64,000 bases of DNA from Hydnum rufescens UP504. Lineage: Eukaryota; Basidiomycota; Agaricomycetes; Cantharellales; Hydnaceae. This document shows positions 10,772 through 61,549 of this stretch, one piece after another (the first letter of the stretch is position 1; each line of letters begins with the position of its first letter). The notes beneath the pieces are model-generated. The model did no database searches. It had not been told where the DNA came from and saw only the letters and a list, made by a program, of their open reading frames with translations. Location of the stretch: contig MU129186.1 in NCBI GenBank assembly GCA_014904985.1, positions 1 through 64,000 of the forward strand, in the 5' to 3' direction. The position numbers and the translations under genes are program-made.

Positions 10772-10784
10772 CTTATATGACCAC

Positions 10785-10935: not shown

Positions 10936-10950
10936 GGTATGTAATCCCAG

Positions 10951-12950: not shown

Positions 12951-12967
12951 ATACACCCACCCATGAT

Positions 12968-15132: not shown

Positions 15133-15905
15133 AACTTTGCTAACTGCAGCAACTGCTGGTGTTGAGTCTGCTATTTTGACACTCACTGTACTTCAAATGG
15201 GACAGTCCCAGGGCCCACTGGGGCCATGGCTTTGTCAGACAGGCTGAGTGTGGGCACATTCTGTGTGCCCAAATCTCAGCTGTCCAACAAGCCTACTTCA
15301 AGAGAAACCATCACCATCTTGCTATCCTCCATCCTCTCCCATACCCTCATGTAGTCCTCCAGAGGGAAGGGGGTTGTTGTTAAAGCTGTGTGTGGGTGCA
15401 TTATATGCACCCAAATTGTGGCTTTTCAACACCCCACTCTCAGGGTGTTCTGACAATTTTTGGCCTCACTCTTCCTCATCTCCTCCTGCCCTCCCCACTG
15501 AACATCACCTGGAATCCTCAAATCTTGGCCCAATTGGGTGTTCATGGGCTTGTTGGAATTGCCTCATTTGTGTGCATCTTTCAAGCCTATTTACAAAGCA
15601 ATCTGACCATGTTTCATCTCACTATCTCCATCCTCTCCCACTGCCCTCATGTGGTCCCCCAGGGGGAAGGGGGTTGTTGTTCAAGCTGTGTATGGGTGCA
15701 TTATGAGTGCCCAAATCACAGCTTTTTGATGCCCCACTCTCAAGGTGTTCTGACAATTTTTGGCCTCACTGTTCTTCATCTCCTCCCCTCCCACTCAATA
15801 TCACTCATATCTTGCCTAACTTGGGTGTTCATGGCCTTGTTGGATTTGTTTTGTTCACCTGGATGTATGAAACATATTTACAAGACCCCAGTCAATCACT
15901 TGGGA
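15133..15905 (+). repeat. right copy of the 0.8 kb inverted repeat
   Basis: Reverse-complement partner of 7470-8283, starting CTTTGCTAACTGCAGCAAC and carrying the same three tandem sub-units. The 191-codon and 152-codon frames here are open only because of the repeat structure. Beyond this, 15906-16420 shows nothing recognisable apart from a short GAACCTGACC-type repeat near 16300. Confidence 0.65.
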
Positions 15906-18493: not shown

Positions 18494-21400
18494 CTAGCAA
18501 CAGAAGATGAGCTTGAGCCATTTCAGGAATATATGGAAACCCCAGCCATGCTTTTGATGGAGGGCATCATGATTCATGAGAGGAGTTTCCTCATTCATGA
18601 GAGCAGTGTCATGATGTCTGAGGGATGAATGTGGGGTTGCAACAGTAGGCAGGAGGCCAGGATAAACTGGTTCCTTGATGAAATGGCCATTAAATGTGTC
18701 ATGTGGAAGATCAAGAATGAAGATGTGGCCATCTTCACATCCAACTGCAATGCAAAAGTGGGTTTGTGGCCTTGATGCAATCTGACAGCTGGATAAGTAC
18801 TGTGATGGGATGTAACATATACGTTTGGTGTGATTATGATCATCCTCTTTCTACTTCACTTGTATCCATGAGACCTGAACAAACCAAAAGAGTGAAGACC
18901 AGTCCACAGAGAGCCCAGAGGTCACTAGGGATGACCCAGGGGCTAGTTGATGGGAGGGCTGGGCAGTCAAATCCCAAGTGATGCTTTCTGAGTGTGCATG
19001 TGAAACCAGGGTATGACCATCAGGGGAAAATACAAGCTTATGAACTGGAAGAGAATGACCCTCTAATGTTGCAATGGATCCACCAGACATGGTGTCCCAC
19101 AATTGTACAGTAAGATCATCAGAGCCTGATGCCAGGTGCAATCCATCAGGTGAAAATGCAACAATGTTCACTGAACCAGAATGGCCTTTCAGTGTTGCAA
19201 TCAATGTGCCTGATGTGGCAGTCCACAATTGTAGAGTACCATCAAAGAAGCCTGATGCCAGGTGTAAACCATCAGGTGAGAATGCAACAGTTTTCACCCC
19301 AGGAGAATAGCCTTGGAGTGTTGCTGTGATCATGCATGCTTTGGCATCCCACAATTGTAGAGTACCATCATGGAAGCCTGATGCCAGGTGCAACCCATCA
19401 GATGAACATGCAATGGCTGTAATCCAATCAGAATGGCCTTTGAGGATTGCAATGATCACATATGATACAGTATCCCACAATTGTAGAGTACCATCATGGA
19501 AGCCTGAAGCCAGATACAATCCATCAGGTAAAAAGGCAACAGTGGTCACTGGATTAGAATGACCTTCCAGTTGATGGAGGGATGTGGCAGATACAGGATC
19601 CCACAATCGCACAGTGAGATCAAGCTTCCTGATGCTAGTTGCAGTCCATCAGGTGAAAATGCAACACTCTGAACAGAGAGAGAATGGCCTTCCAGCTTTG
19701 CAATGGGTGTGCCAGATATGGGATCCCATACTTGTAGAGTATGATCATAAGAACCAAATGCAAGGGACAGTCCATCAGGTGAGAATGCAATAGTTGCAGC
19801 CCTCACAGGAAGACCTTTCAGTCTTCCAATGAATGTACTTGATGTGGCATCCCACAATCCTATAGTACCATTTGTGGAGCCTGATGCCAAATACAATCCA
19901 TCAGGCAAAAATGCAATGGCCACAACTGAACCAACATGGATGTCCAGTGTTCCAGAGGGATTGGATATGGCAGCCTTTAATCCATCAGGCAGCAATGCAA
20001 CATTCCTAGCCAAACCAGAATCATCTTTGGGTTTTGGTATGTAGGTGCCAGATACAGCACCCCACAATTGCAGAGTGCCATCATCAGAGCCTGATGCTAG
20101 ACATAATCCATCATGTGAGAATGCAACAGTCCTAACTGGAAGAGAATGGCCTTCCAGCATTGCAATGGATACACCAGATATGGCATCCCACACTCTTACA
20201 GTATGATCATCAGAACCTGATGCAAGGTGAAATCCATTGGGTGCAAATGCAATGGACCTAACTGGACCAGAATGGCCTTCCAGTTGGCAATGGATATAGT
20301 GGATATTGCATCCCACACTTGTAGTGTATGATCATCAGAGCCTGATGCCAGGTGTGATCCATCAGGTGAAAATGCAACTGCCCCAACTGATCCAGAATGG
20401 CCTTCCAGTTCTGCAATGGATGCACCAGATACAGCATCCCACAATTGGACAGTACAATCCCAGGAACCTGATGCCAGGTGCAATCCATCTGGTGAAAATG
20501 CAACAGCACCAACTAAATTAGAATGGCCATGTAAAGTCACCAAGTTTGCTGGCCACTCAGACTCTAGGCCATGGAGAACCTTAATAGAATCATGTGCATC
20601 TCCACAATATGCCTTGTACAGTGCAGTGCCATGTGGTGTGAAAGGCAATGCAGAATGGTAAACATGCAGTGCACTGGCTCTTATCACATCCCCGTGTGCA
20701 AGAAGGAATCGACGGCAATCCGACAAGATGCTCAGAACAATTGCCTTGCATTTGGAATTTTTCTGCAATTAGAATCATTCTGAACTGAGTCACTCCATCA
20801 GGGATCAATGAGAAATACACATACCGCCCAGCGATGTGCCTCTGCAATCAAGTTTCCAGCATAGGAGACACTCCCAAGCAGACTCAAGGCTTCAAACCAC
20901 CATAAAATTGACTGCATCATGAATGGCTCCAGTGCCTCCATCACCCCCGTCTCCCCGAGCTCCACATGCGATAGATGGGAGGCCCAGTATCGGCATGCAT
21001 ACTGAACCTCCGGAGGTAGTGCCTCTCTTACTTTCTCCTCAAGTCCATCCACTTCCGCGTTCAGTAATGACGGATCTGAGATCCCAACGACATCCCGCTT
21101 TAGATACGCGGCCATGAGTTCGAAGCATCGGATAGCATGTCGCAATTCCTGCTCTGGCACCGCAACAATCACGAACTCTGCCATGGAACATCGCGAGGCA
21201 TCCGTAATGAATTCGATGAATGAATGGTGGTAGATACGAGGGGCCTCGTGAATATCAGAAGGGGGGATGATCACCGAGTGAAGATGGCGTAAACTAGCCT
21301 CAACAACGTGTCGTTCGTACTGAACGAACTTGGCCAACGAATAGAGTGGGAGGGGTTCGCGCAACAGCACGATGCTCCCGACGACGATTTGAAACCGTTT

Positions 21401-22605
21401 TAGAGTCTCTCGGTGATTAAATGAAGAAAGCGAGTTACGAAGCACCTCCATGTAGAGCTCATCCAGGTGCGAATATGGTGCCGCTCCGGCTTCTTGGAGG
21501 TATTGGGTATTAAGTATAAGCCTTAGATGTGCGCGAGGATCTTGGACACGATCGTCCCCGATGAAGCGGATGGCCGTCGCGGCGTAAATGAATAACTTCC
21601 CGCATTTCTCTACCAGCGAGTTTATCTCGGCTTCCGTCGCCCAATCAGTAGGCATCTCACCATCAATTCTCCCCGGAATTTTCGCCAATTCGGTGGAGAC
21701 GTACAAGTGCATGTCTTGCTGAACGACCAATGCATCGATATCGTGAAGAACCGTCTTTTCCAGGTTCGGGACTCTGTTGAACACCGAGGATAGGTGAGGT
21801 TGTGGACGACTTGTGATTAGGATCCGTAGGAAAGGTATTTGGATGAGGTGTGAAAACACGAGTCGCAAAATATCAGCCGCGCCCTTTTCCTCGCATTCGT
21901 CAAGGGCATCAAGGATGATAAGTATTGGGCTCCGATGGGGATCGATAGTGAGGAGGGGTGTCAAGATTAATTGCTGAAGCTGAGAGAACAGTTCCTTTTC
22001 CCCAGCTGTCGGATCTTGTCTTAGGGCTTCCGAAATGGCCTCCTTGAATGCACTGTCTGAATGCGCAAGTTGGAAAGCGAGCGTCGGTAGTACGAGACCC
22101 GGATCACGTAAAGGTCTGTCGCTCCGAGAAAAGAAGAAAGTGGCACCTAGCATGGCTTTCTCTGCCGCCCGTTCCACTACGGTTTTCGCGATGGTCGACT
22201 TCCCGATGCCGGCGAGTCCGCTGAGCCAGTATACAGGCGGTCTCTCGCCGTTCGTGCTCTCTGACCATGTCCGAATCTCCCCCAATATAGCAACACGAGT
22301 GCCCTCGAGACATGACGATGGTGCGTCCCCACGGCCAGAGTTGTGGGCGGCATACAGGGCTCGAGGAAGATGCCTTAAAAGAGAATTCCCGTCTGGAAGA
22401 GGATTGATTATGGACAGGGATTCTAGTAGGTGAGGGAGGGGCTGACTAATACCGTAATGGAAATGGACGTCCCCTCCACGACCACCAGTACCGCCACGTA
22501 CCCCATGACCCCCATGACCAGTGACTGAGGGTAACCATGGATGAGGACGAGGACCGGGGGGAGATATGGAAAGGCGAACTCACCGATGAAGATACGGTTG
22601 TCCAT
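18494..22605 (-). pseudogene. NACHT-WD40 STAND receptor, copy D (frameshifted)
   Basis: This is an inverted paralogue of copy A with the full three-exon layout: exon 1 at 22605-22584 (MDNRIFI), intron 22583-22525, exon 2 at 22524-20825 (1700 bases, open), intron 20824-20763, exon 3 at 20762-18494. Exon 2 has a Gly/His-rich leader, P-loop GLAGIGKST and Walker B ILIILDALDE. Exon 3 encodes WD repeats and the family tail ending before TAG at 18494. Three breaks are visible against paralogues: a missing C near 20288 (ISIAQLEG becomes ISIANWKA), a missing T near 19626 in LASGSFDLT, and an in-frame TAG after WIQVK near 18851. The first two fall in short runs, so assembly error is possible; the stop is a substitution. 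Confidence 0.85.
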
Positions 22606-27228: not shown

Positions 27229-30200
27229 ATGGAGCCCCATGTCTCTATCAGTCAGTTCCGTTCCATTTCTCCTCTCGATCCCAATGATCATACCCCTTAT
27301 CCTTAGCTACTGGCCACGGGGGCCATGGCTCCCATGGGGGAACTGGCGGTCGTGCAGGGGATGTCCATCTCCATTACGGTGATACTCAGCCCCTCCCTCA
27401 CGTATTAGAATCCTTACCCATAACCAATCCTCTTCCAGACGGGACTTCCCTCTTAATGGCTCTTCCTCGAGCCCAATATGCGGCCTATGACTCTGCCCGC
27501 GAGGACGCACCCTCATCGTGTCTCGAGGGCACTCGTGTTGCTATATTGGGAGGAGATTCTTACATGGTCAGAGAGCGCGAACGGCGAGAGGCCGCCTGTA
27601 TACTGGCTCAACGGACTCGCTGGCATTGGAAAATCGACCATCGCGAAGACCGTGGCAGAACGAGCGCGAAAGAATGCTATGCTAGGGGCCACTTTCTTCT
27701 TTTCTCGCAATGACAAGCCGTTACGTAATCCCAGGCTCGTACTACCAACCCTCGCTTTCCAACTCGCCCAATCGGACACTGCCTTCAAGGAGGCCATTGT
27801 GGAAGCCCTAAGTCAGGATCCGACGGCTGGGGAGAAGGAACTGTTGTCTCAGCTTCAGCAATTAATCTTGACACCCTTTCTCACTATCGATCTCGATCGG
27901 GCCCCGATACTTATCATCCTTGATGCCCTGGACGAATGCGAGGAAAAGGGCGCGGCTGATATCTTGCGACTTGTGTTTTCACACCTCATTCGAATACCTT
28001 TCCTACGGATCCTAGTCACAAGCCGTCCCCAACCGCACCTATCCTCAGTATTCAACAAGGTCCCGAACCTGGCGAAGACGGTCCTTCACGATATCGATGA
28101 ATCGATCGTTCAGCGAGACATTCGCTTGTACATCTCCGCCGAATTGGCGAAAATTCCGGGGAAGATTGATGGTGAGATGACTGGTAATTGGGCAACGGAG
28201 GCGGACATAAACTCGCTGGTGGAGAAGTGCGGGAGGTTATTCGTTTACGCAGCGACGGCGATTCGCTTCATCGCGGACGATCGTGTCCGAGATCCTCGCA
28301 CACATCTAAAACTTATACTTAATACCCAATACCTCCAAGAAGCGGGAGCGACGCCGTATTCGCACCTGGACGAGCTCTACATGGAGGTGCTTCGTAACTC
28401 GCTCTCTTCATTTAATCGTCGAGAGATCCTGAAACGGTTTCAAATCGTCGTTGGGAGCATCGTGGTGTTGCGCGAACCCCTCTCACTCGAATCGTTGGCC
28501 AAGTTCATTCAGTACAAACAACACGTCGTCGAGGATAGCTTATCTCATCTTCACTCAGTCATTGTCCCCCCTTCTGATATTGATGAGGCCCCTCGTATCT
28601 ACCACCCATCATTCCTCGAATTTATTACCGATCCTTCCCGATGTTCCATGGAGGAGTTCGTGATTGTTGCTCGCCCGCAGCAGGAACTGCGACATGCTTT
28701 CCGATGCTTCGAACTTATGGCGGCGTCTCTAAAGCGGGATATCGCTGGGATCTCGGATCCGTCACTGCTGAATAGCGAAGTGGATGGATTTGAGGAGAAA
28801 GTGAGTCGGGCACTTCCTCCGGAGGTTCAGTATGCATGCCGTTACTGGGCCTCCCATTTATCACGTGTGAAGGTTGGGGAGACGGGGGTGATGGAGGTAC
28901 TGGACGCGTTCACGGTGCGGTCAATTTTATGGTGGTTTGAATCAATGAGTCTGCTTGGGAGTGTCTCCTATGCTGGAACTTCGATTGCAGAGGCACATCG
29001 CTGGGCGGTATGCATATTTCTCATTAATCCCTGATGGAGTGACTGAGTTCAAAATGATTCTGATTGCAGACAAATTCGAAATGCAGGGCAATTGTTGTAA
29101 GCATCCTGTCGGATTGCCGTCGATTCATTCTCGCGCATGGGGAAGTGATAAGAGCAAGTGCACTGCATGTTTACCATTCTGCATTGCCTTTCACCCCACA
29201 TGGTACTGAACTGTACAAGGCATATTGTGAAGGTGGAAAGGATTCTATTAAGGTTGTCCATGGACTGAAATCCCAATGGCCACAGAACTTGGCTACTTTA
29301 CGTGGTCATTCTAATTCAGTTTTTGCTGTTGCATTTTCACCAGATGGATTGCACCTGGCATCAGGCTCCTGGGATTGTACTGTGCAATTGTGGGATGCTG
29401 TATCTGGTGCATCCATTGCAAAACTGGAAGGCCATTGTGGACCAGTTAGGGCTGTTGCATTTTCACCTGATGGATTGCACCTGGCATCAGGCTCTAATGA
29501 TCATACTCTACAAGTCTGGGATGCAATGTCCAGTGCATCCATTGCTCAACTGGAGGGCCATTCTGGCCCAGTTAGGTCCATTGCATTTTCACCCAATGGA
29601 TTGCACTTGGCATCTGGCTCTGATGATTTTACTGTAAGAGTGTGGGATGCCATATCTGGTGCATCCATTGCAATACTGGAAGGCCATTCTGATTCAGTTC
29701 AGGCTGTTGCATTCTCACCTGGTGGATTATGCCTAGCATCAGGCTCTGATGATGGCACTCTACAATTGTGGGATGCTGTATCTGGCACCTACATACCAAA
29801 ACCAAAACCTGATTCTGGTTTGGCTAGGAATGTTGCATTTCTGCCTGATGGATTGCAGGCTGCCATATCCAATTCCTCTGAAACATTTCATCTCCATTTT
29901 AATCCAGTTGTGGCCATTGCATTTTTGCCTGATGGATTGTATTTGGCATCAGCCTCCATGGATGGTACTATAGGATTGTGGGATGCCACATCTGGTGCAT
30001 TCATTGGAAGACTGAAAGGCTTTCCTGGGTATGCTACAACTATTGCATTCTCACCTGATGGACTGTCCCTTGCATTCAACTCTCATGATCATACTCTACA
30101 AGTATGGGATCCCATATCTGGCACATCTATTGCAAAACTGGAAGGCCATTCTATTTGGACTATTGCATTTTCACCTGATGGATTGCAACTAGCATCAGGA

Positions 30201-31203
30201 GGCATTGATGATGTTGTGCGATTATGGGATCCCTTATTTGGCACATCCATCAGTCAACTGGAGGCCCATTCTCATTCAATGACCACTGTTGCATTCTCAC
30301 CTGATGGATTGTATCTGGCTTCAGGCTTCTATGATGGTACTCTACAATTGTGGGATGCCATATCATATGTGATCACTGCAACCCTCAAAGACCATTCTGC
30401 TTGGGTTTCAGCCATTGCATATTCATCTGATGGGTTGCACCTGGCATCAGGCTTTGATGATGGTACTCTACAATTATGGAATGCTGCGTCCAGCACATTC
30501 ATTGCAACACTGAAAGGCCATTCTGATTGGGTGAACATTTTTGCATTTTCACCTGATGGATTGTACCTGGCATCAGGCTCTTATGATCATACTGTACATT
30601 TGTGGGATGCCACATCTGGTGCATCCATTGCAACATTAGGAGGTCATTCTCATCCAGTTGATAGGCTTTCATTTTCCTCTGATGGTCATACCCTGGTTGC
30701 ATACTCCAGGCTGGTGACCTTCACTTGGGATTTGACTTCCCAGCCCCCCAATCAACTAGCCTCTGGATCATCCCTAGAGACCCTGGGCTCCCTGTGGGCT
30801 GGAATCCACTCTTCTGGTCTGTTCAAGGCTCATGGGTGCATGTGGAATGGGAAGAAGGTGGTCACAATCACACCAAACGTATATGTTACATTCCACCCCA
30901 TCACTTACCCAGGACCCAGACATTGAGGCCACAAACCCACTATCAGATTGTGGTTGGATGTCAAGGTGGCCATGTGTTCATTCTTGATCTTCCACATGAC
31001 CTATTTAATGGCTGTTTCATTGAGGAACCAGTTTATCCTGGGTTGTGGTCTACTGTTGCAACTGCACATTCATCCCTCACAAGTCATGACACCCATCTCA
31101 TCAATGAGGAAACCCTCTCATTAATCATCACACCCTCCATAATAGACATGCCTGGGGCTTCTGTGAATTCCTGAAATGGCTCAAGGTCATGTTCTGTTGC
31201 TAG
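27229..31203 (+). pseudogene. NACHT-WD40 STAND receptor, copy B (frameshifted)
   Basis: Exon 1 at 27229-27250 (MEPHVSI), intron 27251-27306 (weak donor GTCAGT), exon 2 at 27307-29007, intron 29008-29069 (GTATGC..TTGCAG), exon 3 at 29070-31203. Exon 2 has P-loop GLAGIGKST and Walker B ILIILDALDE. Exon 3 has about twelve WD-type repeats, some divergent (PKPKPDSGLARNVAF, GRLKGFPGYA), then the CYIPPHHL tail. Defects against paralogues: an extra G at about 27548 (TTGGGAGGAG for TTGGAGGAG), a missing C near 30781 (GAGACCCTGGG) and a missing C near 31112 (GAAACCCTCTC). All three are in homopolymers, so the gene may be intact in reality. Its 3' flank to about 31480 is shared with copy E. Confidence 0.85.
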
Positions 31204-35957: not shown

Positions 35958-36899
35958 GGGGTGTTCATGCTGGCAAAAGTAAAATCAAAAGTGGGACAAA
36001 AGTGAGACAAAAGTGCACTGACTTTTGGTCTCAGTTTTTGCATCACTTCTAGTTGACTTCTACTTTTCCTAAAGGACATTCATGCTAGAAGCTCAAAAGT
36101 GAGCCTCGGAAGCATGCTGCTGTGACAGATTCGTGTGACGTGACATCTGTCTATGCCATCCATCAGCCGTCGACAACAAGTCATTCTGGCAACACTCGCC
36201 CATGCTAAATTCCTATGTGAACGTTATCGCACAAACCAGAATCATTTTGTCTCAGCTTTATCGGATTCATCTGATTCCCTATCATCTAATTCTGAGACTT
36301 CGTCTACCACGACCTCATCTTCCTCTTTGTCTTCCTCCTCCAGCACTTGCAGCAGCAGTGGTGATTTGAGTGCTTCAGGAGCATCCAGCTGTGATAGTTG
36401 TGATAGTTATGATGCGAGAGATGCTATAGCTCAGCAGCAGTACAATGTGGCAATGAGGCATGTTCGCTCATTTTTAATCCTGCTTCTCTCCACTCAAATC
36501 CTCTTCCCCCAACTCAGTCAGCCACAAATGTAGGTCTAGTTAGATATTACGAGCCTTGCATTTATATAGTCTAACTAGAGGTTTTGATGCTGGGGCCCCT
36601 GGGGCCAGCTAACCTGATTTCCATGGTTCAGGCAGGGGCCCCCAGGGGCCCCTGGGCCCCTGGCTCTGAACTTAGAAAATGACCAGGGAGAAGTCATATA
36701 GGAGGGGGGTATCAGGATAGGTGCTGGAAGGCCTGGGAAGGCCCCTGAATGGGTCAGCGGGCTACACGGGCTTATCAGGCCAATCACAGTTATTATTTTC
36801 TCATTGTTTATGATGGGGGAATCCCATGTTTCATTCTTATTGACTTGTTTATTATTTATTTATTTATTTATTTATTTAAAAATTCACAGGAAACTACTT

Positions 36900-38653
36900 A
36901 GTAGCACCACACACCCGCCCTAGTGGGTGTGTGGTACCTTCCCTTGCCTCATCGGGGGTTCAGTCAGTTTTCAAAGGGGGGGGATGTCACAGGCAGTATC
37001 TATTGTATGATAACCTAGATTAAATAAGTAAAAATAAGATTAATATGTTAGTAAAGGAAAAAAATTCGAAGGGAATGCCAAAAGAGCAGCAGGTGCTGCT
37101 CTTTTGGTGTCGTGGTACACCTCATAATCAAAAAAACTAACCTAATATTGCCACACACTCGCTTCGGCGGGTGTGTGGCACCGTATTTGTTTCGTGTTTC
37201 GTTGTTGCGGAAAATCGAGGGTCGGGGGTATGGGGGGCAGCGCAGTCCCGTGTTTTGCTTTGGACCTGGTCTGTGCATTTGTCGAGTCGGATATCGGGCA
37301 GTGGAGATACCTAGAATAATAGTATGTTAGTAAAGAAGAAAAAAACAAAGGCAACGCCAAAAGAGCAGCTGGTGCTGCTCTTTTGGCGTCGTCGCACACC
37401 CGTAGGGGGGGAAACTCACCTAATATTGCCACACACCCGCCGAAGCGGGTGTGTGGCGCCGTATTTGTTTCGTCCTCGTATATGTTGCGGGAAGTCGAGG
37501 ATCGGGGGGTATGGGTGGCTGCGTGGTCGTGTTTTGCCCTGGGCCTGATCTGTGCATTCGTCGGGTCGGGTGTCGCGCGGTAAAATGTACCTAGAATAAT
37601 GATATGTTAGTAAAGAAAAAAAACGAAGGCAACGCCAAAAGAGCAGCCGGGGCTACTCTTTTGGCGTCGCGGTACACTGCGTAATAAAAAAAAAACTCAC
37701 CTACTAGTACCACACACCCGCCGAAGCGGGTGTATGGTACACGATGTCCTCGTCGGGTGGGTCTTCGCGGAGGGAAAAGACCTAGAAGAACAAATAATAA
37801 TACATTAGTACAAAAAAAGAAAACAGAGGTGCCAAAAGAGCAGCTTCTGCTGCTCTTTTGGCACTGGTGGGATTAGACATACCTAATATTACCACACACC
37901 TGCTTTGGCGGGTGTGTGGTTTGGAAAGTTTGGTTTGGCGGGAGGCCGTTTGGCCCGTGCTCGTTTGGCGGATTGTCGGGTTTTGGCGGGCGGGTGGTGT
38001 TCGTATGGCGAGTTTTCGTTGGGCGGGTGTTCATTGGGCGGGCGTTCGTGGGGCGGGCGTTTGTTTCCCGGGCGTTCGTTGGGCGGGCGTTCGTTGGGCG
38101 GGTTTGGGGTCGCGGGGTTTGGCTCTGCGGGTTCATACAGGTTTGAGTTCAAGATCTAGAAAATAAATAATATTAGTTAAATCATTAAAACTTTGCAAGA
38201 AGAGCAGCTTACGCTGCTCTTCTTGCACCACAAAATAAAATAAAAATAACAAAAAAAAAACAATCATATAGTACCACACACCCGCCACGGCGGGTGTGTG
38301 GTACCTCGTTTCACTCCGTGGCCACGCACTGTGCTGCTTTTCAGGTGCGGACTCTTGTTCGGGTAGGTCATTATACGGGTCGTCCCCGTTCTTACTGGCC
38401 TGGTGTCGATACCTGGGGCTGCTGGGGGTTTCGTGTTGCTATTTGTTCGTGTGAAAGATGTAGATTTAAACAAAAAGAGCGTCAGTTAAGAAGTAAAAGC
38501 AGCGCAAAAAGAGCAGCTTCGCTGCTCTTTTTGCGCTGTTGTAGCTATTCCAAAATAAAACTCACCTAGTGACCACACACTCGCAACGGCGGGTGTGTGG
38601 TCGTCTAGTTCCTGTTTGGGCGGTTTCCTTGTTGGGTGGTTGCGTAAGGTGCG
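36900..38653 (-). repeat. array 2, left arm: tandem intron-like units (minus strand)
   Basis: Read outward from the central palindrome on the minus strand. Candidate introns: donor 38565 (ACTAG/GTGAGT), acceptor uncertain; acceptor 38156 (TTTTCTAG) with eroded donor; 37882-37782; 37700-37591; 37419-37311; 37141-37015. The better ones have GTGAGT or similar, an inner hairpin AAAAGAGCAGC/GCTGCTCTTTT, TTTACTAACATAT and ATTATTCTAG. Exon-like pieces between them are 171, 169 and 81 bases; a longer one (about 37883-38155) carries a CGCCCAACGAACG repeat (readable as PPNERPPNER). Each ends in an outer hairpin ACCACACACCCGC/GCGGGTGTGTGGT close to the next donor. It is CpG-rich, so younger than array 1. 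Confidence 0.75.
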
Positions 38654-39144
38654 GGAAAGAAACACAACTCAACGCCGGCAATTGCCGGCATCCAAAAAGC
38701 ACCCAAGTGCGGCGTCACGACTACAGTATGAATTAGTAGCAAGTGACTAAATGTAGAATAAATACCATATAATTAATATTTGTCGAAAGGAAATAAAGAG
38801 GCCATAACAATGAGTCAGAGTTCACTAAGGCATGCACATTGCAAAGTGGATTGGGCGATTTCTATGCTTCACAATCGGCTTAAGTTTAAATATATTCCAC
38901 CAATATATTTAAACTTAAGCCGATTGTGAAGCATAGAAATCGCCCAATCCACTTTGCAATGTGCATGCCTTAGTGAACTCTGACTCATTGTTATGGCCTC
39001 TTTATTTCCTTTCGACAAATATTAATTATATGGTATTTATTCTACATTTAGTCACTTGCTACTAATTCATACTGTAGTCGTGACGCCGCACTTGGGCGCT
39101 TTTTGGATGCCGGCAATTGCCGGCGTTGAGTTGTGTTTCTTTCT
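38654..39144. repeat. ~490 bp near-perfect palindrome at the centre of array 2
   Basis: The arms mirror each other around a 5-base loop CCACC at 38897-38901. Pairing runs from GAAAGAAACACAACTC at 38654 to its complement ending at 39144. I noticed only one mismatch (AAAGCACCC against GGGCGCTTT). The arms include GCCGGCAATTGCCGGC, itself a palindrome, and AT-rich CATATAATTAATATT. Intron-like units point away from it on both sides. Confidence 0.9.
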
Positions 39145-40830
39145 CTCGCAACCACCACCTAACAGGGAAACCACCAAAGAAGGAAAGATGACCACACACC
39201 CGCCGATGTGGGGTGTGTGGTCACAAGGTGAGTTTTTTTTATCGTAGTAGATACAACAGCGCAAAAAGAGCAGCGAAAGCTGCTCTCTTTGCGCTGCTTT
39301 GAACTTGTTTACTAACACAGCACCTTTCATATAGATCATGACCTGGTCCTAGGGATCAGCCAAACGACGAAGGCCCGACCTGCCAGGGCCCAAATAGGAC
39401 CACGCCAGGCAACAACGTGAGAAGGAAGACCACGACAACGCGACGAACGCGACGAACACGACGAACGCGACGAACGTGACGAACGCGACGACGACAGACG
39501 ACAATGCGCCCAGTGAATGGCCGCATGAACCCCACACCCGCTACGGCGGGTGTGTGGTTCTCTATAAGATGAGTCCCCCCTCCAATATGTCCAGCCGCAC
39601 AAAAAGAGCAGCAAAAGCTGCTCCTTTTGCGCTGGTTTTAATTTCTCACTAACGTAAAGATTTTTTCTAGATTATCCCCTGCCCTACAACCAATGAAATG
39701 AAGAACCACCAACAAGAACGAGCGGAACGGACCCCGCCAAACAAGGACCCGCCAAATGAACCCCAAACCCCCCGAAACGACAGCCCATGACACGAATGCG
39801 CGCCAAAAGCCACACGCCAAACGAAACCCCCGCGAGTGAAGGACCACCCCACCAGCAAAGACACAAAGCGACGTGAAGCCAACGAGTGGCCCCAGGAACC
39901 ACACACCCGCTGCGGCGGGTGTGTGGTACCACAAGATAAGTTTTTTTATTTTTTATTTTTTTTGTGGCGCAAGAAGAGCAGCGTAAGCTGCTCTTCTTGC
40001 AATATTTAATGTTTATTTATTCTTCTAGCTTTTGGACTCGCACCCACACGAACCCCCAACCCAAACCCGCCAAGCGAAACCCACAACCGTGACCCCACTG
40101 AACAAAGACCCGGTGAGCAAAACCCCGCCCGAAGACACGCCAAACGACCACCCCCGACAAAGAAAACTGCGAAAAACGCGACCAGCGCGACCACGACAGA
40201 CGACAACGTGCGCAGCAAATGGCAGCACGAACCACACCCGCTACGGCGGGTGTGGTTCTATATAAGGTGAGTCCCCCCCAATATATACAGCGGCGCAAAA
40301 AGAGCAGCGTAAGCTGCTCTTTTTGCGCTGCCTTTACTTCTTTACTGACCGACTTTTTTTTTCTATTAGGTCTTCACCTTTCACGCGAGCGAATACCAAT
40401 GCGAGAACCCCCACGACCCCGCATCTCGAAACCCGGCCGACCATACACGGGAATATAAAGTACCACACCCGCCGCCACGGGTGTGGTACTACAAGGTGAG
40501 CTTTTTTTATTAATCCTGCGGTGCAAGAAGAGCAGCATAAGCTGCTCTTCTTGCAAAGCTTTATTTTCTAACATATTGTTTTTTTTCCCCTAGATCTTGG
40601 ACTCGAATCTGCATGAACCCCCGACCCCAAACCGCCAAACGAACACCCGGCGAACGAAGATCTGGCGAGCCGAACCCGCGACCCACTCCACGACCCCGAA
40701 CCCGCCGAGCTGAACCCCACGACCCCAAACCCGGGGAACCAAGCAAACCCCCCCCCACATGAAGGTGAGGCTTTTTCTTTGGCTGTGATCGTGCAAGAAG
40801 AGCAGCCTCTGGCTGTTCTTCTTGGGCGCA
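39145..40830 (+). repeat. array 2, right arm: tandem intron-like units (plus strand)
   Basis: Candidate introns: 39228-39334 (GTGAGT, hairpin, TACTAAC at 39310-39316, CATATAG), an acceptor at 39670 with its donor mutated to ATGAGT, an acceptor at 40028 with its donor mutated to ATAAGT, 40267-40369, 40496-40593, and a donor at 40765 that is cut off by the element end. Exon-like pieces such as 40029-40266 and 40594-40764 start alike (CTTGGACTCG...) and read as Pro/Arg/Asn-rich peptides without a known domain. Inner hairpin variants AAAAAGAGCAGC and AAGAAGAGCAGC keep complementary partners. Confidence 0.75.
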
Positions 40831-42401
40831 TGGGTGAGCCCCACTGGGCGAGCCTATCATTGTATATAATAATAGTAGTAGTAATAATAATAATAATAAT
40901 AATAAATATAAATAATCCATGGCTAGGGGCCCCAGGGGCCCCTGGGCTGCTGACAGCCCCCCTTGATTGAATTGCAGGGGCCCCTGGGGGCCCCCGGTCT
41001 GATATCTAGTTAGACCATATAAATGCAACCTTTGAAGTATCTAATTAGATACTGATAATTGGCTGACCAGGCTGTCTTCCCCATGAGGTTGAGAAAGCCA
41101 CCCAACTTGGACTAGTCCTTATCTTTTATAAGGAAGATGACTCATTTCGATTTTGGTGGAACCTTCGAGTTGCGCCATGTACCTTTGATGGCCTTCTCAC
41201 ACTTATTGAAGATGACCCTGTATTCTACAGTACGGGAATTACCCACAGCTCCCTGTCCCCTATCAGCTGGCCATCACCCTCTATCGATTTGGCCACTATG
41301 GCAGTGCTTCGTCCATTGAGGCTGTTGCTCAATGGGCAGGATGCAGCAGCGGCGTTGTGGTGAAGGCCACATGAAGGGTGATGCTTGCATTTATGCCTCT
41401 CCACAATCAGGCTATCCAGTGGCCTACAAGGGTTGAGAAGCAGAGGGCTTCTGACTGGGTGGAATTGGTTGCATGCAAGGCATGGCGCCCGGGATTTGCT
41501 ATGGTTGATGGGATGCTTATTCCGTTACACTGCAAACCTGGCCATCATGGTGAGCAGTTTTATGATCGCAAATCCAACTACTCTTTAAGCCTTACAGTAT
41601 GTTATCTGTGCCATGAGTGTTCCCCTTGTACTAATGTGAATATTCAGCTCGTTACAACACCAGATCTTTGTATTATCGATTACATCCTAGGGCCCCCCAG
41701 GGAGTGTACATGATTCCATGGCATTTCGAGAATCATGGGCCTTCAAGGAGTCTGAAACACTCTTTTGTGAAGGCAAGTGGCTCTGGGCTGACTCAGCTTA
41801 CGGCCTGGCTTCATGGTGCATTACACTGTACAAAAGGCCCCTTTCACTCATCCTAGAGAATCGCCAGTTCAATTATCACCTCTCCTGGGTATCTTCTGTT
41901 TGTATCTATATTACCTGCATGTTCTAATCCATTGAATTAGGTTCGTATACGCTCAGAGCATGCAATGGGGTACCTCAAAGGGCGATTTCAATCTCTGCAT
42001 GGCCTATGGCAGAACATCAACTCCGAACAAGACTTTCGCTGGGCACTTGCATGGGTTTGTGTTTGTCTTGTAATTCATTCACTTGTGGCACAAGTTGAAG
42101 ATGTAGGGGATGAGGAATTCTGGGATTGGGTATGTGTTGGACTTGAGGATGAGGATGATGCAGACCCTACAAATGAGGTGGAGGGTTTTCTTTGGCATGG
42201 TCAGGCACTGGCCATGGGTGAGACACTAGGCCAACAGAAGCGACAGTTAGTCCAGGAGGCTCTCTTTCAAGAGCTATATAGTGATGTGTAGCACAGACAA
42301 CCTGTCCTATTGCTATTAGAGTTTGAACTATTATGAAAACTAAGTACGAAGCTACTTGGGGTGTGTAGGAAAGCCGAAAATATCTGGCAGTGACTTAGGA
42401 G

Positions 42402-44197: not shown

Positions 44198-44887
44198 GTA
44201 CCCCCCCCCCTTTGAGCATGGAGCCCTTGAAGTGCATGGTTAAAGGTGTATGAGGTTGGGAGGTTGGGAGGTTTGGCAGTTGCTGTGATGGTTTCTATAA
44301 AGGGTGGGTTTGTTGCAGATGCTTCTGGTTCCATACTACCATCATTGATATGGCTGATGAGGTGATCTTGGCTCTGTTGAAGGCTAGTGCTGTTTTGGCA
44401 ATTCCCATGACTGAGGCAGTTATGAGAATGAAGGCAGAGTTGGTGAAGTGGGAGGTAAGTGTTTTTTGTCTCTTATGTGGTTGCAGTGTTGTGCTGAGTC
44501 GTGTGGTAGCAGCAGGTCCATGCACAGGGTCAGCTTCCTGACCCTTTGTCATTTGTCACTGAGATGGAGGAGGTTCTTTTGGGGTGGAGGATTCACCTTG
44601 AGAAGGTTGTGGATTGTGTTGCCTTGGAACATGAAATGGTGGAGAACACAGCTTGTGCTTTGGAAGATGCATAGCAACTTGAGGCTTGGGAGGCTGTGAG
44701 GCATGAGGTTGAGGAAGCTGCTCAGCATGTGGCTGAGGCAGAGGTGCCCAGGGGTGCACCAAAGGATGTGCCTGTGGTTTTGAGCAATGATGAGGAGTCA
44801 CCTATGGTGAGTGTTGATGAGTAAAAATTTTGATGTCAGTGTAATATAGTGTATTATGTAATTAAGTTAGGACTCAAAAGTCAGGCT
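44198..44887 (+). other. possible retroelement-internal or unknown coding remnant
   Basis: After the LTR end and a C-run (44202-44212) there is an ATG at 44350 (MADEVILALLKASAVLAIPMTEAVMRMKAEL), a possible intron 44455-44491 (GTAAGT..TTGCAG) and further readable sequence (EMEEVLLGWRIHLEKV, HEVEEAAQHVAEAEVPRGAP) to about 44824. It is helical and charged with no recognised motif. It could be a decayed gag-like region or an unrelated gene. Confidence 0.3.
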
Positions 44888-45075
44888 GGTCAGCCAATTA
44901 TCTATATCTAACTAGATACAATGAGAGTTGCATTCAAACCATCTAATTAGATACATAGGCCTGGGGCCCCAGGGGACCCCTCGGGGTATCAACAAGGGAG
45001 CTCAGGGGCCCCTTGGAACCAACTTCAAAGGCCATACATCTTGTAAGTTCACTGCTAGGGGCCCCAGAAAATAAA
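44888..45075. mobile_element. isolated element-P-type terminus
   Basis: Begins GTCAGCCAATTATC and continues with TCTAACTAGATA, GTTGCATTCAAACC and two GGGGCCCC clusters, matching the right terminus of element P in inverted orientation. The partner end is not in the window. Confidence 0.6.
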
Positions 45076-48640: not shown

Positions 48641-51264
48641 AGACCTTCCCCCACTCAGACCTGAACATCTGGATTAGATCTGTGATTCCCTCCTTCGTCC
48701 CTGGCTCAACCTCATGGACAGTAGTTGGATTGGTTTGATAACCTTCCTGCTTACACCGAACAACAACTTTCTCCTGCTCAACAAGTGCAGATGTAATCTC
48801 CACAATTTTGTTCTGGCTGGCAACAGTTTCCGATACTGGTACAGACAGTAGTTGCTTCTGAAGAACATCAACAAGATCTTGAGCTATGTATAGATGGTGA
48901 TGGACAGATAGAATCTTCTCAACAGAATGGAAGCCTTTCTTCTTTGATTGTTGCTCCAGGGGTCAGCTCTGATAGGCCCATTGTTCCTTGAACTGCAGCT
49001 GCAGATACTCATTGCTATAGTGGATCCTAGCTCTTTTCTCCTCAGCAAGAGCAAGCCATGCCTTCATTGCTTTAACTTGTTTCTCCAACCAGACACCAGC
49101 TTCACACATCTTTGAATGGTCCAGGTGTTCAATCTGGACATCCAAGAGGAACAATCAGCAATGAAAACCAGCAACATGGAGGTTCAGAATGAGGCACTGG
49201 AGATCACTCCAAAGATGCTCACAACCCTCTCCATCAGTGAGACCCCAGCCATCACTTTTCCAAGGATGATACCACAGTTGGCATACCCACTGATGGCCAT
49301 ATGCATGGAATACACTAATCCCAAATATGATTTGGGGTATCCAGCATGGTACCAGGTTCCACTTGAGAGCACTTTGGTGAATTTGACAGCCAACATCATA
49401 GAGAATGCCAACTTGCCAGTCTACAGGCAGCTGGGCCATAACAAAGTCAATTATGGCCAGTGCATAGAACTGCTGCTCACTGGGTGTCCATATATTGCCC
49501 CAGACAATGACTCAGTCATGACAACAAACACCTGCCATCACACCAGTGTCTGAGAAGTGCCCCCCAGGAGTCTTCACTCTCCCTCCATCAGCAGCCATGA
49601 AAGACTCACCACAGCTATCAAGGTATGAGTTTGGGACATGCAACCCCGGCTCAACATGGTCATCCTCAGTATCTGCAACATTGGCTGCATACTTGCCCTT
49701 CTTAGACACATGCATAGTATGATGGTTGTGTGACTTGACAGGGCGTTCTGCCTCCACCCTTGCTTTCCATGCTTCCAGGAAGCTCCGGGGTAGTTCATGA
49801 GTTCCTGGCGGAATAATACAAGGATCTTGGCTGCCTGGTTGCTTTTTGTGGCCTGGATGATGATCATAGTCCTTGTTTCATCAGATGGCAAAGCATGCAT
49901 CAAGGCACAAGAAGAACTCTGGACTAAAAGACATAACCAGTATATCAGTAAGACAAGCATAAGAATATATTATGCATTACTCACAGTTTGCTGTCCCCAG
50001 CTTTGTTTTTGTTATGTGCTCCAAAGCATAGCAGGCAACATGAGCGAAGATAGTCAGATGGAGTAACACAAGGGTTGGGACCACTACATGAGCCTAAGGG
50101 TAGTGATGACGTGGTGGGTTCATTTGCACTTCCTTCAATGAGATCATTCATTGTAGAAGTGGTGGGCTCCCAAATGGAATGGCCATTAGTACATGCACTG
50201 ACATACAATCGAGCTGTTATAGGTGTGGATTCATCAAGCTTGGGCAGCACTATCATCTCCAGAGCAACATTGTCCCAGTCAGCAGGATCATGAGATAGGA
50301 CCTCATGGCGAGCAACACTGATCTGCTTGTTGATTTCAGCATCAACAACATGCACTAAGACCTGGTATTGGGCTAGAGCAGAACCAAATCATCGACAGAG
50401 CAAATCCTGGGCTTTGAATACATGGCCCTGCCTGGCTAAGAACTTCACTAGCATATCTGCCCATGCTGCCTCATTTGGAGCCAAATGCACAAATAATTCA
50501 GACATGAACTCCATCATTTCAAGGCTTACAGCAAGGGCTGGATGGACTGGTGAGCAGGGAAATAGACCCCACTTCACCAGCTGCAAGGGGCAGGTGCACA
50601 GGGGCAAATGCAGAGTTCAATATAGTCTAGGCCTAAGTCAAAGGTGGTCAGTTTCTGGTCCAAGCAAGTATAAACCATGTACTCATGATCCATATATATG
50701 GCAATCACCTGTTTCAACACTGTATGACCAGTGCAAGAGCAATGGATTGATGGAGAGTCCAAAGGTGCCTGCCCTCACTGTGATTCGCGCATGTATTCCA
50801 TGTATGATGAATCAAGGCAGGTATGACATCCCAATCCCAACGATGTGCCACAGCAGCCCACCAATGTGCATGGTGAGACAGCTTCTTCTCAACAGAGTGT
50901 TCGTTCTAACCTCCCACATGGATCAGATATCAAATGACAAATGGCTGCTCAGTTGCCCCTAGGGACAAGCCAACATTGCTGCCACCTGTTCCCGAGCCCT
51001 CTTTGATAATCCCAGAAAACATAGATGGACTAGGATGGGCACTATGAGAGGCCTCGGAAGGCTGCTTATTTTGGTGGTAATGGGGCTTAGAGATACTGGT
51101 GCAGGGTGCTGATCAGGATGTCTTGGTACTTTGCACTGTTGTCACAACTGCCACAAATGTACCAGTATTTCTGCCCAACTTCCAAGTCAAGCCTGGTGCA
51201 GATGCTCTGTGCTGCATGCCAGATTGAGAACAAGTGTCTTGCAAGGGCATAGACATTGACAGTA

Positions 51265-54345: not shown

Positions 54346-54814
54346 TCAGATTAACTGGACTGCCAGTTCCTGGATTCACATTGCATTTAATTTCCAGAAG
54401 CTAGATCATCAATCCCTATGTCATTAATTGATGATTCTACACCAAACAAAATACTGTAGAGCAAATGCTCATCATGCAGTGACCCAGTGATTCTGGAGGC
54501 ATCAAACTGTTTGACACAAGTGCACAACTCAATATTCAGAGATCCATATGGAGACATTGCTTTTGGATTGGATCATCAGATAGTCAGCTCTACTGAATTA
54601 GGTTGAGTCTTTTTTAATTGCAATTGAAGACTGCTTGAAATAATGCAAGCCATTAAGTTCCTGGGTGATGAGACCATCATTAGGAGGCTTATCCTCCAAA
54701 CCATGGCATCATTAGCTATGGGTGCTCAACTATTTTGACTTGAATTCTTGTGACACTATGGTCAAAATATAGGGTAGTATTCACATGGTTGTGCTGAAAT
54801 TGGTACAGTATTTC

Positions 54815-57800
54815 CAAATCTGGACATCAAGATTTGGACCTCTTAGGTTGGCTTTCACTATGCCAAAAGGGACCTAAGAGGTCAGTAGTATTTCAAAGAG
54901 CAACTTGGAATTTGAGTAGGAGCTGCATCATCACTTCCATGGTCCAATGCTGTGGCTGCTGTTCCCTGTGGCACAGCTCCATTCCAGATTATGGAGCTAC
55001 TGAATTGATCATGTACAGCTACCTTTCAGCCCAAACATTGGCAGGAGGATCCATAGCTAAAAGGAGCAGCTGCACAATGCAAGGGAAAAGCTGCTTGGTG
55101 GCATGCATCAGCTGCATCAGAAAATGCTTTCAGCAGCTCCTTAGAATCTCATCCATGGAGCTTATCCCTTCATTATCATCAGCTCCTCCAGGATATCCAG
55201 GAGTACCATTTTCTGCAAATTCAGCTGCTGATCTTTTCCTGCAGCTCCTGTCTTGCACACTGAAGAGCCTGTCTCCAGATGATGGAGCTCCATGTCAATG
55301 CAGAGGAGCTGCCTCTGGACATCCATCAGCTGCATTGAAACTTATGCTTAGCAGCTTCTTTGAATCTCATCCATGGAGCTTATCCTTTGATGATCATGAG
55401 CTCCTCCAGGATACCCAAAAGCACCATTTTCTGCAAATTCAGCTGCACTTTTTCCCCTTCAGCTGCTAATCTCTCCCTGCAGCTCCTGCCTGGTGCACTG
55501 AGGAGCTTGTCTTTAGATGATGGAGCTCCATGTCAATGCAATCTCATGGATGGAGCTCATCCATTGATTACCATTAGCTCCTCCAGAATCCCTGGAGTAC
55601 CATTTTCTGCAAATTCAGCTGCACTTTTGCTTCTTCAGCTGCTAATCTTCCCCTGCAGCTCCTGTCTTGCACACTGAAGAACTTGTTCCCAGATGATGGA
55701 GCTCCATGTCAATGAAATTTCATGGATAGAGCTCATCCATTGATTACCATTAGCTTCTCCAGAATCCCTGGAGTACCATTTTCTGCAAATTCAGCTGCAC
55801 TTTTGCTCCTGCAGCTGCTAATATTTCCCTGCAGCTCCTGTCTTGCACACTGAAGAGCTTGTTTCCAGATGATGGAGCTCCATGTCAATGCAATTTCATG
55901 GATGGAGCTCATCTCTTGATTATCATTAGCTCCTTCAGAATCCCTGGAGTACTATTTTCTGCAAATTCAGCTGCACTTTTGCTTCTTCAGCTGCTAATCT
56001 TTCCCTGCAGCTCCTGTCTTGCATGCTGAAGAGCTTGTTCCAGATGATGGAGCTCCATGTCAATGCAGTTGCATTCATGTGGCTCTCATTCTTGTAATTC
56101 ATCAACTCATCCAGGAGCTCCATTCCCTGAGTCAGCTACACATGGATGAAAGTGCAATGAAATGGAGCTCCCAAGGGGAAAAACAGCAGTCAGGAATGTC
56201 AAGCTGCAGGCTTCAATCCAAGGACAGCAGCTACACTGATGAGAGTGCAATGAAATAGAGCCCCAATTTGCTTGAGATAAGCTCTTTGGTAGGAGGGGTG
56301 GAGCTCCAAATATGTTCAGACTCAGCTGACTCAGGGAATGGAGCTCCTGGATGAGTTGATGAATTACAAGAATGAGAGCCACATGAATGCAACTGCATTG
56401 ACATGGAGCTCCATCATCTGGAACAAGCTCTTCAGCATGCAAGACAGGAGCTGCAGGGAAAGATTAGCAGCTGAAGAAGCAAAAGTGCAGCTGAATTTGC
56501 AGAAAATAGTACTCCAGGGATTCTGAAGGAGCTAATGATAATCAAGAGATGAGCTCCATCCATGAAATTGCATTGACATGGAGCTCCATCATCTGGAAAC
56601 GAGCTCTTCAGTGTGCAAGACAGGAGCTGCAGGGAAATATTAGCAGCTGCAGGAGCAAAAGTGCAGCTGAATTTGCAGAAAATAGTACTCCAGGGATTCT
56701 GAAGGAGCTAATGATAATCAAGAGATGAGCTCCATCCATGAAATTGCATTGACATGGAGCTCCATCATCTGGAAACAAGCTCTTCAGTGTGCAAGACAGG
56801 AGCTGCAGGGAAAGGTTAGCAGCTGCAGGAGCAAAAGTGCAGCTGAATTTGCAGAAAATGGTACTCCAGGGATTCTGGAGAAGCTAATGGTAATAAATGG
56901 ATGAGCTCCATCCATGAAATTGCATTGACATGGAGCTCCATCATCTGGGAACAAGTTCTTCAGTGTGCAAGACAGGAGCTGCAGGGGAAGATTAGCAGCT
57001 GAAGAAGCAAAAGTGCAGCTGAATTTGCAGAAAATGGTACTCCAGGGATTCTGGAGGAGCTAATGGTAATCAATGGATGAGCTCCATCCATGAGATTGCA
57101 TTGACATGGAGCTCCATCATCTAAAGACAAGCTCCTCAGTGCACCAGGCAGGAGCTGCAGGGAGAGATTAGCAGCTGAAGGGGAAAAAGTGCAGCTGAAT
57201 TTGCAGAAAATGGTGCTTTTGGGTATCCTGGAGGAGCTCATGATCATCAAAGGATAAGCTCCATGGATGAGATTCAAAGAAGCTGCTAAGCATAAGTTTC
57301 AATGCAGCTGATGGATGTCCAGAGGCAGCTCCTCTGCATTGACATGGAGCTCCATCATCTGGAGACAGGCTCTTCAGTGTGCAAGACAGGAGCTGCAGGA
57401 AAAGATCAGCAGCTGAATTTGCAGAAAATGGTACTCCTGGATATCCTGGAGGAGCTGATGATAATGAAGGGATAAGCTCCATGGATGAGATTCTAAGGAG
57501 TTGCTGAAAGCATTTTCTGATGCAGCTGATGCATGCCACCAAGCAGCTTTTCCCTTGCATTGTGCAGCTGCTCCTTTTAGCTATGGATCCTCCTGCCAAT
57601 GTTTGGGCTGAAAGGTAGCTGTACATGATCAATTCAGTAGCTCCATAATCTGGAATGGAGCTGTGCCACAGGGAACAGCAGCCACAGCATTGGACCATGG
57701 AAGTGATGATGCAGCTCCTACTCAAATTCCAAGTTGCTCCTTGAAATACTACTGACCTCTTAGGTCCCTTTTGGCATAGTGAAAGCCAACCTAAGAGGTC

Positions 57801-57822
57801 CAAATCTTGGTGTCCAGATTTG
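54815..57822. mobile_element. 3 kb foldback element with ~1.3-1.5 kb inverted arms
   Basis: The left arm (54815 to about 56131) and right arm (about 56326-57822) are inverted copies, starting CAAATCTGGACA and ending TGTCCAGATTTG, around a roughly 190-base spacer. TTTC flanks both ends (54811-54814 and 57823-57826), a possible target duplication. The inner part of each arm is a tandem repeat of a 175-176 bp unit marked by TGGAGCTCCATGTCAATGCA (55521, 55697, 55873, 56048). The right arm has one more unit than the left. Open frames here are repeat artefacts. Confidence 0.8.
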
Positions 57823-57835
57823 TTTCACTTGTACC

Positions 57836-61200: not shown

Positions 61201-61549
61201 ATAAGCCATACGATCGAAGGATGGGTCAGACAGGATGAGTTCACCCATGGGAAGATTGTCTCTTTGGTGCTGAAGAGACAGAACCATAGTGGCACCTCAG
61301 GATTATTTTCAACATGCGTCGTGGGGAAAACTGCGAGATATTCAAGTACGATGAGGCACAGCGGAATATGCCGACGCGGTTGCCGAGATTTGCGCCCTGG
61401 CTCCAAATCTTAGAGCCTAGTTGTGGGTTCAGAGCACAGTGTGATATCTCCCGACTGAACGATAAGTCCCCGATCTCCAACCTCGAAATCGGCTAGTGAA
61501 TCCATCGGGCCGATCTTGCCAAAAGTGGGGCCTACACCGTGTTAATATA
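58300..61549. repeat. right copy of the segmental duplication, with an extra ~1.1 kb
   Basis: Collinear with 25350-27228. A minus-strand frame at 58397-58711 (AARLVDKTVDVLKIVCPLANDADIEQGLAF) is open here and broken in the left copy; no domain is recognised. Relative to the left copy about 1.1 kb is added between about 59690 and 60790, with no identified content. The minus-strand reading NGVQHKELTQLAE and MENGVSSP (about 60900-61170) is conserved between copies. Confidence 0.5.

Follow-up and report, generated by a model that had tools for sequence, protein, structure and literature searches.

Divergent arrays of hairpin-framed, intron-like units in a probable KDZ-mobilised transposon of Hydnum rufescens

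The window studied here comprises 64,000 nucleotides of the basidiomycete Hydnum rufescens UP504 (contig MU129186.1 of assembly GCA_014904985.1, positions 1 to 64,000 of the forward strand). Between positions 36510 and 41074 it contains a repetitive element, in which two arms made of hairpin-bearing, intron-like units diverge from a central palindrome. The element is probably a transposon mobilised by a KDZ (Kyakuja-Dileera-Zisupton) transposase and carrying two head-to-head, non-protein-coding genes transcribed by RNA polymerase II (Pol II). Judged from their sequence features, the two arms are most likely paired, spliced and polyadenylated non-coding RNA genes. Other copies were sought in the same genome (63.2 Mb, 539 contigs), from which all the evidence comes; designations such as L012 refer to fetched loci.

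Results

Extent and ends of the element

Homology between copies ends at both borders of the element, where alignments with most other copies break off at approximately 36507–36510 and 41074–41075. The borders are flanked by an 8 bp target site duplication (TSD), TCTTCCCC, at 36502–36509 on the left and at 41075–41082 on the right. An exact 8 bp TSD was found in nine of the ten copies in which both flanks could be aligned, the remaining fetched loci being aligned at one end only, and in the tenth (L025) seven of the eight positions matched. An earlier note, made from the sequence of the window, had described the feature as mobile and self-similar, which the TSDs and the many copies bear out, and had placed it at 36900–40830, an extent that is too small: the real feature is the whole element. 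The element begins with CAACTCAGTCAGCCA and terminates in TGGCTGACCAGGCTG. Its terminal inverted repeats (TIRs) occupy 36510–36579 (plus strand) and 41005–41074 (minus strand, reading CAGCCTGGTCAGCCAATTATC...), with 63-nt arms that are 75% complementary.

A degenerate pattern of the left TIR occurred 166 times in the genome (control, 0) and the right-end pattern 85 times. Among 100 left ends listed, 22 formed facing TIR pairs 4.3–8.6 kb apart (distances up to 9 kb were allowed). Ten additional left ends were read, and eight of them led into array hairpins; L046 led into what we take to be a Tc1-like frame, and L047 presumably into a different repeat. No transposase belonging to the element was found, there being no stop-to-stop frame of at least 180 amino acids within 36510–41074.

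Resemblance to KDZ transposons

At least 154 matches to KDZ transposases, of which 150 were listed, were obtained genome-wide from 584 first-look candidates. A KDZ-type (G-type) transposon end, CAGGCTGGTCAGCCAATTATC, occurs 75 times in the genome. With the 150 listed matches, a KDZ domain lay inside 16 of these 75 ends on the opposite strand, 1.8–3.0 kb from the end, inside none of them on the same strand, and outside two. The KDZ end could be aligned with the right end of the array element with 110 identities, 17 mismatches and 25 gap positions; the alignment score was 128, compared with at most 34 in 50 shuffles. Because its ends resemble those of KDZ transposons of the same genome, the most suitable reading is a non-autonomous element carried along by a KDZ transposase. 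Zisupton and Zisupton-1_PGr (a Dileera) are described as producing 8 bp TSDs, and Kyakuja from Laccaria as producing 7 bp TSDs (PMC12730594), therefore our best guess is that the mobilising enzyme is Zisupton- or Dileera-like.

One KDZ transposon, likely to represent the source family of the mobilising transposase, lies next to the element. Its end is at 44882–44902 (plus strand), and its transposase domain (PF18758) was detected at 49158–49877 (minus strand) in two open stretches with E-values of 1.6e-27 and 2.5e-5, the second being just below the Pfam cut-off. This neighbour, which extends from 44882 to about 51900, is apparently interrupted at approximately 45.7–46.8 kb by a repeat that is partly present in L020 and L024, and a stretch of N lies within it near 51.2 kb. 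There were no hairpin units in the two KDZ stretches examined, therefore the units look unnecessary for KDZ mobility as such. The 8 bp TSD had first suggested a hAT transposon, a candidate that now seems less likely: the TIR was absent from the stretch examined at 12 hAT loci (of 90 matches), and KDZ fits instead.

Anatomy of the units

Each unit has, in this order, a T-poor exon-like stretch, an outer hairpin, a donor, an inner hairpin, a branch site, a T-rich tract and an acceptor. The outer hairpin consists of CCACACACCCGC, a loop of mostly 4 nt and GCGGGTGTGTGG, the inner hairpin of CGCAAAAAGAGCAGC, a 4-nt loop and GCTGCTCTTTTTGCG. The donor reads AAG|GTRAGT, the branch site CTRAY (mostly ACTAAC or ACTAAT), and the acceptor YAG (mostly CTAG). 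The window copy has 11 full units, six in the left arm and five in the right, plus two terminal half-units.

The units of the right arm, on the plus strand, are R1 (39228–39334; GTGAGT..TACTAAC..ATAG), R2 (39569–39670) and R3 (39936–40028), both with AT instead of GT as donor, R4 (40267–40369), which together with its outer hairpin folds at z −10.3, and R5 (40496–40593). The arm ends in a half-unit at 40765–40824 (region from 40761) with a GTGAGG donor and an inner hairpin, and with no recognisable branch site or acceptor; the first AATAAA beyond it, resembling a polyadenylation signal, is at 40901–40906 on the same strand. On the minus strand, the left arm comprises L1 (38460–38565), whose acceptor is TAC in the window copy and TCTAG in L012, L2 (38156–38304 including the outer hairpin), which has no GT donor, L3 (37782–37882; GTATGT..TACTAAT..CTAG), L4 (37591–37700), L5 (37311–37419; z −8.6 with the outer hairpin) and L6 (37015–37141). 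It ends in an outer hairpin at 36888–36936 that is not followed by a donor, and the first AATAAA beyond it is at 36871–36876 (minus strand). The six introns proposed in the earlier note (R1, R4, R5, L3, L4 and L5) all carry GT..CTRAY..AG, and L6 is an additional candidate GT-AG intron that was absent from its list. TTCTAG, which the note gave as the acceptor, is only one form; CATATAG, CTATTAG and CCCCTAG are others. The A replacing G at the first intron position (39569, 39936 and the equivalent positions in L011, L012, L023 and L028) may indicate either AT-AG splicing or silenced introns.

Central palindrome and orientation of the arms

The centre of the element is a palindrome at 38655–39143, presumed to act as a bidirectional promoter. 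Its arms (38655–38896 and 38902–39143) are 242 nt each and 100% complementary, and with the 5-nt spacer the palindrome measures 489 bp, in agreement with the approximately 490 bp reported before. The window copy is shortened: in 11 of 14 copies of the close group (L012–L022) the middle is longer by about 165 bp, to a total of about 655 bp, while the palindrome of L009 is short like that of the window and that of L010 intermediate. In L013 a 651-nt stretch at the centre folds as a single, nearly unbroken DNA hairpin. Compared over 130 nt without gaps, so that indels depress the likeness, the two halves were 0.89–0.99 alike in the window copy and in L009–L021, 0.74 in L022 and 0.96 in the diverged copy L029; no probe pair was obtained for L028 or L030. 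The halves of the palindrome in L023 and L028 are similar to different lineages, and in L023–L028 as a whole the two presumed promoter halves look as though each had its own lineage of origin. From these differences in likeness and lineage, arms seem to have been exchanged between elements and the palindrome to have been re-formed.

Units to the left of the palindrome lie on the minus strand and units to the right on the plus strand, as the earlier note had stated. In 23 palindrome-centred copies (that of the window and 22 fetched ones), with 8–18 units per copy, some copies being cut short, 285 of 286 units pointed outward; the one that did not is a weak partial match. The note had left a choice between a divergent pair of multi-intron transcription units and a giant inverted repeat. 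The outward orientation, the AATAAA signals at the arm ends and the sense-strand bias of loops and wobble pairs (below) argue for the former. Of the latter only the central part held, since it is palindromic, whereas the outer arms have an ungapped identity of only 6–23 positions in 50 per stretch.

Termini of two types recur at the arm ends, where they were recognised by eye. Of 23 elements, 20 had one arm with the right type, a donor region and inner hairpin with no recognisable branch site or acceptor followed by a TATATAATAATAAATAAA-like run, and 14 had one arm with the left type, an outer hairpin followed by AATAAA; the remaining arms are interrupted by insertions or end before any terminus in the stretch examined. 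Of 96 AATAAA in sense orientation, 95 lay within the outermost fifth of the arms, a count that includes overlapping occurrences (several per run) and covers 13 of the 23 elements, 10 with cut or uncertain ends being omitted.

RNA-level signals

When 33 sequences were searched with a unit profile, 348 non-overlapping units were detected, none of them in L046 or L047. Five sampled units folded at z −5.8 to −10.3 relative to dinucleotide shuffles. The perfect core of the inner hairpin occurred 3766 times in the genome and its backward-pattern control 0 times; together, these results show that the feature is not due to chance.

Covariation and splice signals were assessed in the 150 best of 513 matches to the model, 147 of them distinct. 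The modelled stems have 13 and 17 pairs. Of the stem cells 95.9% were paired, and 16 of 30 stem pairs were altered on both sides, with 224 such cells compared with 55.7 in shuffles (reached by 0 of 500), counts that come from a structure-fitted alignment and are inflated by relatedness. For this reason we used strand-specific tests, whose outcome is not predicted by pairing at the DNA level. From 211 full-length units, 19 without an inner-hairpin match and three identical ones were dropped, leaving 189 distinct parsed units, 183 of them with a parsed outer loop. On the outward strand 77 of the 189 inner loops were GNRA tetraloops, on the opposite strand none; UNCG outer loops numbered 51 outward and 11 on the opposite strand (n = 183). 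When 147 units were grouped at 80% identity (24 clusters), GNRA loops were found in 8 vs 0, and G.U pairs outnumbered A.C pairs by 40 to 14, with one column omitted in which G.U is the most frequent pair. The corresponding numbers were 13 vs 0 (GNRA), 7 vs 2 (UNCG) and 47 vs 22 (G.U vs A.C) for 36 clusters at 90%, and 1 vs 0, 2 vs 0 and 15 vs 5 for eight clusters at 70%.

The T content was 37% in parsed introns and 12.3% in the exons between them, and in all 78 adjacent pairs the intron was the richer in T. In the best 150 of the 513 matches, the first letter of the donor was G in 87% and A in 13% and the second T in 100%, the C, T and A of the branch site were each present in 100%, and the A and G of the acceptor in 100% and 91%, percentages that are biased upward because the model was built from 16 units picked for good donors and hairpins. 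U2-type signals (GT, CTRAY, YAG) were thus present in most of these 150 units and not in every one. Between the window copy and the diverged copies L029 and L030, the hairpins, donor and branch site were identical at 158/180 and 163/184 positions, compared with 197/277 and 159/220 for the exon and the rest of the intron.

Test of coding capacity

Exon lengths had no three-base periodicity (26, 29 and 23 exons with remainders of 0, 1 and 2). When the window arms were spliced in silico, all three frames contained stops and no open frame ran through an arm, with splicing of the left arm incomplete in this test (L2 and L3 were retained and the L6 acceptor was misplaced). Orthologous exons differ by indels within a GACGAACGC-like repeat. 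As far as tested, the exons are most likely non-coding. No match to Rfam 15 at gathering score was found in the window, and 78 exons compared with the masked window, L053 and L031–L042 gave no matches.

Copy number and other arrays

The perfect outer hairpin occurred 1007 times genome-wide (control, 0). Since there are 5.7 perfect inner cores per element (23 copies), the 3766 cores correspond, very roughly, to 650 elements, which, if the others resemble those examined, would amount to about 3 Mb, 5% of the genome, again a very rough figure. Among 50 inner-hairpin sites listed (of the 3766), 48 were clustered and two, C1:444895 and C2:7609, were isolated.

Two more arrays lie in the window. The second, decayed array (9014–11340) has seven minus-strand and two plus-strand units, and the third (13701–15169, minus strand), with six decayed units, is inside a 95.5% identical duplicate of the left side of the second. 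The direct duplication spans 2.2 kb (8283–10458 and 12958–15134) and includes a decayed array arm; at its far flanks there is an inverted 0.6-kb copy (7694–8282 and 15135–15726, 96.6%). The observed/expected CpG ratio was 0.12–0.25 in 8900–11500 (0.12), 13600–15200 and L028, compared with 0.68–0.98 in eight other copies, which looks like methylation-linked C-to-T decay of the low-CpG copies.

Neighbouring genes

The window also contains an NLR-like cluster of genes with NACHT and WD40-repeat domains at 1931–5760, 18851–22579, 27457–30926 and 61466–63355, with the WD40 repeats in related 126 bp units. For the first pair the assignment was made by Pfam scan and for the others from the translations. 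In two NACHT genes the first frame has, close to its end, a donor-like GGTATG site. Two open frames that are nearly identical and oppositely oriented (54798–55469, plus strand; 57168–57824, minus strand) form, with the 176 bp tandem repeats between them, a large inverted repeat.

Discussion

The features described above suggest the following course of events. KDZ transposase supplied in trans by full elements would recognise the common ends and insert the passenger with an 8 bp duplication. The central palindrome, which gives both arms identical upstream sequence, would serve as a bidirectional promoter, and each arm would be transcribed outward to the AATAAA run that lies beside the TIR. Tracts of more than five T are adverse to transcription by Pol III, and the intron T-tracts exceed this length, therefore the polymerase would be Pol II rather than Pol III. 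The inner hairpin, often GNRA-capped and situated between donor and branch site, may loop out roughly 40 of the approximately 105 nt of an intron and so shorten the donor-branch distance, while the hairpin at the exon end may hold the exon folded away from the donor. Many of the introns would then be excised by the U2 spliceosome, as the signals and the covariation suggest, and the product would be a polyadenylated RNA in which T-poor linkers are punctuated by CACACACCCGC hairpins. One might speculate that the terminal donor, having no acceptor, binds U1 and retains the RNA in the nucleus, or serves back-splicing. The likely benefit would be a high and stable RNA output through many introns, with the RNA helping the element to persist. 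In Cryptococcus intron number and position are described as modulating expression cumulatively (PMC3744415), therefore the intron array could simply raise the RNA level.

Several observations weigh against this interpretation. Clean GT-AG borders were found in only 7 of the 11 full units of the window copy. The AT donor of R2 is common to L012, L011, L023 and L028, at the same unit L029 and L030 have a GT donor but no CTAG acceptor, and the L2 donor is missing in the window copy, L012 and L014; as these defects are common to several copies, some units look switched off across whole lineages. By the rule used, 61 of the 211 full-length units had no inner-hairpin or donor match and 13 had no AG in the final 9 nt, and 40 of the 137 remaining parsed units had AT instead of GT as donor. 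Further pair types in the stems were unexceptional (37, compared with 34.0 in shuffles; 36 of 500 reached this number), the UNCG bias was weak in the 24 clusters (7 vs 2), and the excess of G.U over A.C in unclustered units was 66 vs 52 in the outer stem and 122 vs 45 in the inner stem, or 68 vs 43 with one column omitted. In the closer copies the signals were better conserved than the rest by a small excess (172/184 vs 253/284 in L011, 175/184 vs 255/288 in L023 and 164/183 vs 252/288 in L028), and acceptor conservation was lower across subfamilies (7/11 and 9/12). In the same ungapped comparison over 130 nt the palindrome halves of subfamily B (L023–L027) were only 0.48–0.54 alike, therefore a perfect palindrome appears not to be required. 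A KDZ domain lay inside the array's own C-type right end at just one of 85 occurrences, and both KDZ elements are known from one end, their far ends being outside the sequence read. The biases mentioned above in stem counts and splice-signal percentages tell in the same direction, as does the dependence on a single genome.

If the units were repeats acting at the DNA level, their hairpin palindromes would be protein-binding or cruciform sites that transposition or replication requires, and the motifs resembling splice signals would be incidental. Both hairpins are palindromic, with near-invariant cores throughout the element, the centre of L013 is almost one unbroken DNA hairpin, and conservation of hairpins alone cannot separate a DNA function from an RNA function. 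We nevertheless consider this unlikely, given the strand-specific GNRA loops, the preference for G.U over A.C, the sense AATAAA at the arm ends, the T-rich introns set against T-poor exons, and the branch site with its T-rich tract; the absence of units from the two KDZ stretches also makes them look dispensable for KDZ mobility. Somewhat less probable is an RNA interference (RNAi) device, in which the transcripts or excised hairpin introns would be mirtron-like Dicer substrates, or stalled spliceosomes would yield small interfering RNA, the array being a small-RNA source or a decoy. Hairpin introns and the many AT donors would suit such a role, and stalled spliceosomes reportedly feed transposon RNAi in Cryptococcus, but the stems are short, the inner hairpin lies within the intron and is not made by pairing of the intron ends, and the outer hairpin is exonic.

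Two further explanations appear very improbable. One is that introner-type elements, which as mobile introns give rise to new ones in genes, were caught here as arrays: the units resemble introns, and introner families can have TIRs and TSDs (PMC9860276). The earlier note had considered introners the nearest concept, a comparison that finds no support, since introners have splice sites at or near the element ends; here the ends are TIRs, the splice signals lie inside each unit, and what moves is a TIR- and TSD-bearing transposon with several units per copy, in keeping with the clustering of nearly all listed inner-hairpin sites. The least probable of all is the capture and decay of a gene for a low-complexity protein with repeated exon-intron units, whose frame was lost. 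T-poor exons are naturally poor in stops and a multi-intron layout would be expected, yet there is no preference for exon lengths that are multiples of three, each frame has stops, orthologous exons vary by short-repeat indels, and in diverged copies the hairpins and splice signals are better kept than the exons. A KDZ-mobilised transposon with two divergent, spliced non-coding RNA genes thus remains the probable interpretation.

The element can be compared with several known systems. It shares 8 bp TSDs and, in the same genome, similar terminal sequence with the KDZ transposons Zisupton and Dileera; unlike these, it has no transposase that we could find, and its cargo consists of divergent intron arrays. 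With introners, reported in fungi from Pezizomycotina, it has in common that it is mobile and intron-like and that some introner families have TIRs and TSDs (PMC9860276), but introners enter genes as introns, whereas the array element holds many introns and its own exons within a larger transposon. The internally symmetrical stwintrons of Hypoxylaceae are likewise sequence-similar fungal introns with internal symmetry; they are nested twin introns, and the available part of the report makes no mention of a transposon carrier with an array and a central palindrome (PMC8469720). Mirtron hairpins are spliced out and then become Dicer substrates (PMC10853799); like these, the array combines a hairpin with an intron, but its short hairpin lies inside the intron and a second one in the exon. 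A literature search, which left subscription journals mostly outside its reach, found no paper describing such an element and no named family.

Non-autonomous DNA transposons are usually regarded as inert passengers. This one appears to be selected for RNA features, namely splice signals, stems, loops and polyadenylation signals, and no protein was found to be encoded by it. We put forward tentatively, as a possibility suggested by the sequence, that it exemplifies a new kind of selfish element, namely a DNA transposon in several hundred copies, the sole gene products of which would be two structured, multi-intron RNAs, and which would be maintained by splicing of the hairpin-framed array, the acceptor-less terminal donor leading to nuclear-retained or circular RNA. 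Thousands of related units in one genome would constitute a natural experiment on how structure around splice sites works. The element could likewise show whether spliced non-coding RNA is enough for a transposon to live off, and it is a candidate route by which intron arrays may be made and moved outside host genes.

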